From: Allopseudospirillum japonicum
Lineage (GTDB): Bacteria > Pseudomonadota > Gammaproteobacteria > Pseudomonadales > Halomonadaceae
NCBI RefSeq assembly: GCF_900108915.1
Contig: NZ_FNYH01000004.1
Coordinates: 124,001 to 188,000 of the forward strand
Length of the DNA: 64,000 bases
Direction of reading: 5' to 3'
This document shows, piece after piece, positions 24,143-27,488 of the stretch. Each line of letters opens with the position of its first letter. Within the stretch, counting starts at the first letter, position 1. A model generated the notes under the pieces. The model did not search any database. It was not told the origin of the DNA and saw only the letters and a program-made list of their open reading frames with translations. A program made the translations under genes and the position numbers.

Positions 24143-24331
24143 CTAAAGGAATAAAAAATAATAATTACATTACTTTAAGCTATATTAAAGCGCATCACAA
24201 GCTTAGGAGGAACACAGCGTGTGCTGATGTGAACAGAAGTTGCGCCGATAAGCCTTTAATGCTGAGCAACAAATACTCTAAACTAGAATGTTCGTCCCTT
24301 TCCCATTGATCTTTGTAATAGGTGATTTCAC

Positions 24332-25084
24332 GTGTCCCTAGGTGTACGTCTTTACACAGGACTCATTTACGCTTTACGTTGGCTCAGGCGTCATATGGCG
24401 CATGGTGTGCCTTTGTTGGCTGCCCTTGCCTTGTTTGCTTGCGCGACTTATGTGTTGACAGCCTTACTCAGTTTTTCTGCACAAGATCCTGGATGGACAC
24501 ATGTCAACGAATTCACCCAAGTAGAAAATTGGCTGGGTATGACAGGTGCTTGGTTGGCAGATGTGCTTTTAAGTGTCTTAGGTTATGGCGCTTATATGGG
24601 CGTTTTTCTGCTGATCTGGTGGGGTATTTGGTTAGCTTTAATGCCGATGCGTCATACGGATTTTGATCCTCTCATGCTGGCTTTACAGGTCTTTGGTGCC
24701 GTGGCTATCTTATTGGCTGCTTGTGCATTATCCGCATTATATTTGTATCATACGCCCAATAATTTTCCTTTTAATTCAGGTGGTTTGTTGGGTGAAAGCC
24801 TGTTGCAGTTCTTGTGGCCTTTGCTTGGTACTTGGGGGGTAACCTTGTTATTTTTTATTGCCTTGCTGGCTGGTTGGGTGCTGTTAACAGGCGTGTCTTG
24901 GTTTAGGGTCATGGATGAAATTGGCTTTGCTTTGGTGAGCATCTGGAACCTGATTCAAGGCCAATGGTATGAGTTGGAACAAGAGCGCCAAGAACTTCAG
25001 CATGAACTTGCGCATCAATACCCTAGCCATGAGGCTTATACGCCTTATGATCCGCCTGATTCGTACTCATCAAAAGGATCTTAA
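24332..25084 (+). CDS. ftsK: FtsK N-terminal membrane domain only, motor absent
   Basis: 250 residues with four hydrophobic segments (about 24-48, 70-98, 108-135 and 150-190) in the pattern of the FtsK 4TM domain: FSAQDPGWTH, then LGYGAYMGVFLLIWWG, NNFPFNSGGLLGES and LFFIALLAGWVLLTG. This domain anchors FtsK at the division septum. A short charged tail follows and the frame ends at TAA 25082-25084. The linker, the P-loop translocase and the gamma domain (about 500 or more residues) are missing, and lolA begins three bases later. The start is GTG at 24332. Either a deletion product or a genuine short gene whose motor is encoded elsewhere. Confidence 0.85.
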   Translation: MSLGVRLYTGLIYALRWLRRHMAHGVPLLAALALFACATYVLTALLSFSAQDPGWTHVNEFTQVENWLGMTGAWLADVLLSVLGYGAYMGVFLLIWWGIWLALMPMRHTDFDPLMLALQVFGAVAILLAACALSALYLYHTPNNFPFNSGGLLGESLLQFLWPLLGTWGVTLLFFIALLAGWVLLTGVSWFRVMDEIGFALVSIWNLIQGQWYELEQERQELQHELAHQYPSHEAYTPYDPPDSYSSKGS

Positions 25085-25087
25085 TTT

Positions 25088-25780
25088 ATGATACGCCTAA
25101 AGGCTTTATGTCAGGTTACTGCTGGGCTTTTGTTTATGCTCCTTAGTACGTTAGGTAGCCTACAAGCTGCGAACCGAGATGCTCAAGCCCTGCATCAACA
25201 TCTGACAAAAATGCACGCGCTCAGTGCGCATTTTACTCAGCAGATTTTAAATGCCAGAGGCACTCAAATACAGCAAGTCAGTGGTTATTTAGCTTTGGAG
25301 CGCCCACATTATTTTTATTGGCAAACGTTGGCCCCTTTTCCGCAGGAAATTGTAAGTAATGGTCAGCAACTTTGGGTGTATGACCCAGATCTTGAGCAGG
25401 TCAGTTTGCATACTTTGGATGAACAAGCCCATAAAACCCCAATTGCTGTGTTACTTGGTAATTTTGAGCAGCTCAGTCGCCACTATCAGGTAAGTCAACT
25501 CGGTGGCACAGCCAAAGCAGTGCAAATGTTCCAATTGGTCCCCTTGACTGAGACTAACTTATTTACCCATTTGCAAGTTCGTTTTGTCGATGGGGTGCTT
25601 GACCAACTGACCTTTGCAGATACCTTAGGGCAACAAACTCGGATTGATTTAGATCGAGTACACCTCAATCCTGAGCTTGATCCTAGCCAGTTTGAATTCC
25701 AGATTCCAGAAAATACCGAGGTGATTCGTGCTTTACAGGCAGAAAGTCCACCACAGCCGCAAAGCCTAACTACAGAGTGA
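25088..25780 (+). CDS. lolA: Outer-membrane lipoprotein carrier LolA
   Basis: Periplasmic chaperone that takes lipoproteins from LolCDE to LolB. 230 residues with a signal peptide cut near SLQAANRDA. The mature part shows HFTQQILNARGTQIQQVSGYLALERPHYFYWQT in pieces, LWVYDPDLEQV, and the usual closing segments. AAAGGA overlaps the end of the shortened ftsK, so translation is coupled to it. Slightly longer at the C-terminus than the E. coli protein. Confidence 0.95.
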   Translation: MIRLKALCQVTAGLLFMLLSTLGSLQAANRDAQALHQHLTKMHALSAHFTQQILNARGTQIQQVSGYLALERPHYFYWQTLAPFPQEIVSNGQQLWVYDPDLEQVSLHTLDEQAHKTPIAVLLGNFEQLSRHYQVSQLGGTAKAVQMFQLVPLTETNLFTHLQVRFVDGVLDQLTFADTLGQQTRIDLDRVHLNPELDPSQFEFQIPENTEVIRALQAESPPQPQSLTTE

Positions 25781-25790
25781 GAAACCTAGC

Positions 25791-26174
25791 ATGCAATATT
25801 GGTGGGCCGTTGCCTTGGGTGGTGCTTTTGGCGCTTTAGCACGTTATGCAGGGGTTGCTTGGGTGAGTGGGCACCTAGGGCGTGCCTTCCCGTGGGGAAC
25901 CTTAAGCGTCAATGTATTAGGCTGCTTCTTGCTCGGTTTTTTGTTTGTTTGGCTGGTGGAGTTCTTAAAAACGGCCCCACATTGGCAAGCCGTTTGTATG
26001 ACGGGATTTGTGGGGGCTTTCACCACTTTTTCCACCTTCGCATTAGAAAGTTTACAATTAGCACAACATCAAGGTTGGTCATTCGCCCTCCTCTATATGG
26101 GCACAAGCCTGATCTTAGGTTTAGGCAGTCTTGCCTTGGGGATTGGCCTAGGCCGTTGGTGTTTTGCTATGTAA
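25791..26174 (+). CDS. crcB: Fluoride channel Fluc
   Basis: 127 residues, four membrane helices. GGAFGALARYAG, LSVNVLGCFLLGF (with the conserved Asn) and GFVGAFTTFSTFALE are hallmarks of the dual-topology fluoride exporter. It is the only copy in view. It starts 10 bases after lolA, so belongs to the same operon. rarA, which usually stands between these two genes in relatives, is absent. Confidence 0.95.
   Translation: MQYWWAVALGGAFGALARYAGVAWVSGHLGRAFPWGTLSVNVLGCFLLGFLFVWLVEFLKTAPHWQAVCMTGFVGAFTTFSTFALESLQLAQHQGWSFALLYMGTSLILGLGSLALGIGLGRWCFAM

Positions 26175-27488
<1,314 letters not shown>

Follow-up and report, generated by a model that had tools for sequence, protein, structure and literature searches.

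FtsK couples septation to chromosome segregation in most bacteria. Its motor and gamma domain serve mainly to draw the terminus to the septum and to switch on XerD at dif. The locus described here lies in a window of 64,000 nucleotides (the whole stretch of DNA analysed) from Allopseudospirillum japonicum and carries an ftsK gene that stops shortly after its membrane domain. It raises the question of whether a free-standing division half of FtsK is all that this bacterium has kept, and what then becomes of its chromosome dimers. The assembly to which the window belongs (G000) comprises 2,744,234 bases in 30 contigs and is 99.24% complete; the window sits in contig 14, where the truncated gene stands about 148 kb into a 204 kb contig, away from the contig ends.

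The ftsK locus

The gene, termed ftsK-N below, occupies positions 24332-25084 of the forward strand and runs for 250 codons from a GTG start at 24332 to a TAA stop at 25082-25084, with a probable ribosome site, AGGTGA, at 24320-24325. Its coordinates, start and reading frame are those of the original prediction. In the product, a four-transmembrane divisome domain is followed by one cytoplasmic helix and a tail that is short and disordered. The FtsK_4TM profile (PF13491) matches residues 30-198 with an E value of 1.9e-36, some 50 residues following beyond it, and the protein retains 17 of the 18 positions that are conserved across 90% or more of 25 relatives. An AlphaFold model (mean pLDDT 90) places helices at residues 3-46, 69-83, 86-103, 113-137, 151-186 and 190-229, which include the transmembrane helices and a cytoplasmic helix reaching residue 229, after which the tail is disordered. 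Foldseek comparison of this model with the PDB returned no meaningful match, and the protein found no close relative when used as a query against the named genome contigs. The FtsK N-domain is intact and not decaying.

No FtsK linker, motor (PF01580) or gamma (winged-helix) domain is present in the 24332-25084 gene. The stop codon and three further bases (25082-25087) lead straight into lolA (25088-25780, forward strand; PF03548, E 1e-40), which begins with an ATG at 25088 and whose ribosome site, AAGGA at about 25074-25078, is embedded in the final codons of ftsK. At this junction the linker, motor and gamma domain of relatives take up about 500-950 codons, and not one of their residues is left here. 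A gap of only ten bases (25781-25790), the site of rarA in relatives, separates lolA from crcB (25791-26174, forward strand; PF02537, E 3.9e-28), and serS (26217-27488, forward strand) closes the conserved gene order. The order is ftsK-N, lolA, crcB, serS, and the position beside lolA-(rarA)-(crcB)-serS is the one expected of ftsK. Dozens of named relatives show ftsK-lolA-rarA, in most with crcB, and then serS, with ftsK frames of roughly 760-980 codons that contain the motor in frame. Sequence and profile matches agree with the original reading of an FtsK reduced to its membrane domain, with a stop after residue 250 and lolA three bases on, and the gene order and longer ftsK that it ascribed to relatives were likewise seen. 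A serS search of the named collection found relatives, though more distant ones, the closest match being that of Terasakiispira papahanaumokuakeensis, at 73% identity.

Absence of the motor and of RarA across the genome

A search of the entire genome with the FtsK/SpoIIIE motor profile PF01580, which detects the members of E. coli and B. subtilis, gave no match at E 0.001, and no SpoIIIE-like gene was found. FtsK_4TM occurs in exactly one copy, and full-length E. coli FtsK, compared with 93.4% of the genome, matches only through its residues 38-191. A single FtsK_4TM and zero PF01580 matches exclude the possibility that ftsK-N is a duplicate fragment of a full-length gene elsewhere. The earlier suggestion of a split FtsK, with the motor gene at another place, is refuted for the same genome, which is without any FtsK/SpoIIIE motor. 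The loss of rarA proposed from the locus holds more widely: the gene is gone from its usual slot, and the RarA C-terminal domain (PF12002) has no match in the genome. RarA is also missing from five other genomes of the order (G118, G231, G069, G047 and G079).

The motor is otherwise nearly ubiquitous: it occurs in every one of the 24 other family members, in 36 of 38 relatives and, across the order, in 387 of 391 genomes. The exceptions are G000, G118, G231 and G047. Since G118 and G231 are without FtsK_4TM as well, an N-domain without a motor occurs within the order sample in G000 only. These two genomes, drafts of 230 and 500 contigs from genus g94 of family f8, are missing both FtsK domains, XerC, XerD and RarA; in their genus the whole system was lost a second time, independently. 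The simplest account is that FtsK went altogether in their lineage, while its N-domain stayed in G000. G047 was considered as a further loss and set aside: it lacks both FtsK domains, but it is 96% complete, has XerCD and has a congener (G079) with FtsK, and its missing FtsK is probably a gap.

Xer recombinases and the dif site

Profile models run over the whole genome found no canonical XerC or XerD. The best score against the XerD model is 122 bits, all others being lower; genomes with a Xer system reach 340-400 bits for XerD and about 240-300 bits for XerC. The slot for xerD before dsbC is empty (the E. coli order is xerD-dsbC-recJ). Apart from a protein of 344 residues discussed below, the tyrosine recombinases of the genome comprise only an intact integron integrase (TIGR02249, 421 bits), a degraded copy of an integron integrase and a fragment of an integrase. 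The integron integrases lie on contig 20 at about 324 kb, the intact one at L031:1168-2148 and the second copy, degraded and interrupted by stops, at L033/L035.

The dif pattern used has zero mismatches to four published gammaproteobacterial sites (Hahella, Haemophilus, Methylococcus and Sodalis HS). A scan of 93.4% of the genome (all but 180 kb at C13:100001-148666 and C18:20001-151684) revealed no 28-bp site with three or fewer mismatches. The original prediction had offered, as an alternative to a split FtsK, that XerCD/dif resolution works differently here; the direction was right and the wording too mild, since canonical XerC and XerD are absent, the scan of 93.4% of the genome showed no dif, and KOPS polarity is gone. 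Elsewhere in the order, four of the four genomes tested from family f6 (G029, G067, G095 and G139) are without canonical XerC and XerD and keep a full FtsK motor, which points to an old, family-wide Xer loss and makes these genomes the appropriate control for the decay of KOPS.

Loss of KOPS polarity

If the motor was lost long ago, the polar sequences that it reads should lose their direction. The KOPS motif GGGNAGGG was counted on the leading and lagging strands, with GC skew deciding which strand is which, and ranked against 41 further motifs of equal composition (42 in all). KOPS stands at 64:45 (leading:lagging) in G000, with rank 29 of 42 and an odds ratio of 0.92, like the other motifs; contig 14 itself contributes 6:7. 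In relatives, sampled as serS-region loci (one region per genome rather than whole genomes, from named gamma- and betaproteobacteria, nearly all FtsK-bearing), the count is 194:20 in all and 183:16 in loci longer than 15 kb, and KOPS is the most polar of the 42 motifs. The loci below 56% G+C give 33:0, and those of E. coli 6:0. Fisher's test of G000 against the relatives' loci below 56% G+C yields a p of about 7e-7; the control set contains no XerCD-less, FtsK-positive genome.

GC skew in G000 is single-signed along contigs of 350-500 kb. Because the skew is intact, KOPS polarity was not lost through inversions. The bias whose presence the original prediction left to be checked is gone, and its genome-wide decay is independent evidence that the absence of the motor is real and old. 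The most polar octamers of the genome resembled a private KOPS but proved to be CRISPR repeats; no other strongly polar octamer was seen. The repeats belong to two large arrays on contig 8 (L267:9177-16137 and L274:3699-9122). One has about 117 repeats with the core TGCCACACAGGC and a 60-base period and is I-F-like, and the second has about 60 repeats, GTCTTCCCCACGCCCGTGGGGGTGTTTC, with a 61-base period and is I-E-like.

Dimer formation and the remaining segregation machinery

RecA is intact, RecB, RecC and RecD are long open frames, and RuvAB is present. A loss of Holliday junction resolution was also considered and dropped once the whole-genome search located RuvC on contig 18. With RecA, RecBCD and RuvABC retained, dimers of the chromosome are expected to arise in this cell, from which the usual route of resolution is absent. 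SMC, ParB, topoisomerase IV (ParCE), MinCDE and the division proteins FtsQ, A, Z, I, W and L are all present. MatP and MukBEF, which are not expected outside their own lineages, have no match in 93.4% of the genome. The parB gene directly follows rsmG (L229:2017-3596, contig 15, just past 200 kb) and the usual parA is missing; solitary ParA-like ATPases are found on contigs 20, 26 and 8. Another piece of the segregation machinery has perhaps been rearranged here.

Alternative explanations

The main rival reading assigns dimer resolution to the 344-residue tyrosine recombinase, which would act without FtsK at some other site. Its gene lies divergent from recC, 59 bases apart (L145:14472-19291, contig 21, about 44.5-49.3 kb). 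XerH-like, XerA-like and plasmid resolvase systems all work without FtsK. The protein is of full length and contains the catalytic-type motifs GLRRNEL, YGKGDKER, HPHGLRK, LLGHAS and TTTQMY, and it is the sole intact tyrosine recombinase of the genome apart from the integron integrase. Its best relatives show 38% identity across 98% of the length and are found on over 2,000 plasmids, but there they sit amid mercury, tellurite and IS genes and look like cargo integrases rather than resolvases. Relatives are sporadic in the order, with 10 of 293 genomes having one, and other XerCD-less genomes such as G029 are without any, which argues against a general replacement. Its scores fall far below the cut-offs of the known families: 148 bits for XerC (cut-off 335), 122 for XerD (330), 49 of 267 for XerS and 110 of 220 for XerA; the XerH model is not among its profile matches. 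A plasmid-type recombinase of this kind is possible as a substitute for the Xer system; that it does resolve dimers in this way seems unlikely. Ordinary genome erosion in a host-restricted lineage is improbable too. It would fit a size of 2.74 Mb, at the small end of the family, the accompanying loss of RarA and the cut of FtsK to its N-terminal part in Serratia symbiotica SCc and STs (PMC5013485). Against this, G017, a relative whose genome is as small (2.7 Mb), retains FtsK and XerCD, and G000 has flagellar and chemotaxis genes, an integron integrase, dense coding in the window, two large CRISPR arrays and the full RecA-RecBCD-RuvABC set.

The remaining explanations are far less probable. 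A linear chromosome would form no dimers, and dif is dispensable for linear E. coli chromosomes (Cui et al. 2007, as cited in PMC2731167). No telomere resolvase of the ResT/TelK type (PF16684) was found in the genome, a result that covers the telomere-resolvase route only, and linearity is judged highly improbable. No more credible is a divergent, unrecognised motor gene acting in trans on a split FtsK, even though in E. coli a separate FtsK motor can complement in trans, going by the entry for Dubarry and Barre 2010 in the reference list of PMC3025954. The PF01580 search that recovers the E. coli and B. subtilis members was negative here, full-length E. coli FtsK matched only by its N-domain in the 93.4% of the genome compared, and a working motor should retain KOPS-like polarity, whereas the only strongly polar octamers are those of the CRISPR repeats. 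That motor and rarA were simply dropped in sequencing or assembly has a next to negligible chance. The genome is admittedly a 30-contig draft with 0.76% of marker genes missing, but an artefact would need two clean deletions flanking lolA inside a 204 kb contig, with stops and ribosome sites left perfect. XerC and XerD are missing independently, and a local error cannot cause a genome-wide loss of KOPS polarity; an assembly error at the end of ftsK-N is very unlikely.

A proposed order of loss

The explanation that fits best, and that is probably correct, is that evolution trimmed FtsK to the half that acts in cell division after the Xer-dif module had been lost. XerD scoring above the cut-off is missing in 14 of 59 genomes tested, 11 of which keep the FtsK motor; among these 14, a single XerC-like gene is retained in G031 and in G096, and G039 has XerCD-like copies only. 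The other three of the 14 are without the motor, and the only motor-less genome outside this group is the probably incomplete G047. Motor loss in 3 of 14 genomes without XerD, as against 1 of 45 with it, gives a p of 0.04, a weak figure uncorrected for phylogeny. Because several genomes without XerCD keep the motor, XerCD loss probably preceded motor loss, and the simplest history is one in which XerCD-dif was lost before the motor at least twice, a history that rests on only two independent motor losses.

In this sequence of events, once the Xer-dif module had disappeared, little would have remained for the motor and gamma domain to do. A clean deletion would then have removed the motor, with the N-domain held by selection. 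By analogy with E. coli, the N-domain may assemble at the septum and support FtsQLB and septal peptidoglycan work, which would make it a pure divisome scaffold. Dimers would be kept rare, with bulk segregation carried by SMC, ParB and topoisomerase IV, and those that do arise would most likely be tolerated at a cost: the septum would cut them and RecBCD mend the break, or they would disappear along with a daughter cell. There is about an even chance that this is a normal-sized, recombination-proficient circular chromosome that does without the FtsK motor, XerCD, dif and KOPS, with either a plasmid-derived, FtsK-free recombinase or no dimer resolution at all.

Comparison with known systems

In a partial coverage of the literature, no report was found of FtsK-N truncation, Xer/dif absence and KOPS decay together outside eroded genomes. 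Two of the components are already known separately, namely truncation to the N-terminal part of FtsK in endosymbionts and Xer/dif absence in RecA-positive gammaproteobacteria. If the reading offered here is true, the division role of FtsK has been separated naturally from its DNA role outside eroded endosymbionts. The protein of 250 residues could then serve structural and divisome studies as a naturally minimal FtsK-N, and the decay of KOPS polarity where no motor reads it would provide a simple genome-wide test of motor use.

With E. coli FtsK, a DNA translocase of the FtsK/SpoIIIE family, the gene shares the neighbourhood of lolA and serS and an N-terminal four-transmembrane domain with its conserved residues. 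It differs in having no linker, no RecA-like motor and no KOPS-reading, XerD-activating gamma domain, and in being alone in its genome. In E. coli the N-domain of about 200 residues is the essential part of the protein (PMC5821084, PMC3870252). In laboratory strains FtsK 1-210, although it lacks the motor, forms hexamers at midcell and allows cells to divide, at the price of filamentation and lower viability (PMC3870252). The statement in the original prediction that the E. coli N-domain suffices for division is sound in the light of both papers. Part of the cost to E. coli ftsK-N strains arises because E. coli carries dif and makes dimers; in those strains XerCD-dif is still there, whereas in G000 the XerCD-dif-KOPS system is gone.

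Among natural cases, the aphid endosymbionts S. symbiotica SCc and STs have an FtsK shortened to roughly the N-terminal part that serves division (Manzano-Marin and Latorre 2016, PMC5013485). The cut is common to both systems, but theirs are shrinking insect-endosymbiont genomes, in contrast to the 2.74 Mb of G000 with flagella, CRISPR, an integron and full homologous recombination. Candidatus Sodalis pierantonius SOPE resembles G000 in its disturbed KOPS distribution and its loss of dif; there, GC skew is scrambled by IS-driven rearrangement (PMC3914690), whereas G000 has kept its skew and lost KOPS polarity alone. Xer/dif is also missing in RecA-positive gammaproteobacteria with large genomes (Legionellales, Saccharophagus and Colwellia), for which dimer handling was left open (Carnoy and Roten 2009, PMC2731167). 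G000 is like them in having RecA and RecBCD and no dif or Xer, and differs in being without the FtsK motor as well, which the tested XerCD-less genomes of the order keep, except G118 and G231. It thereby poses the question of Carnoy and Roten, how Xer-less, RecA-positive bacteria handle their dimers, in a stronger and testable form.
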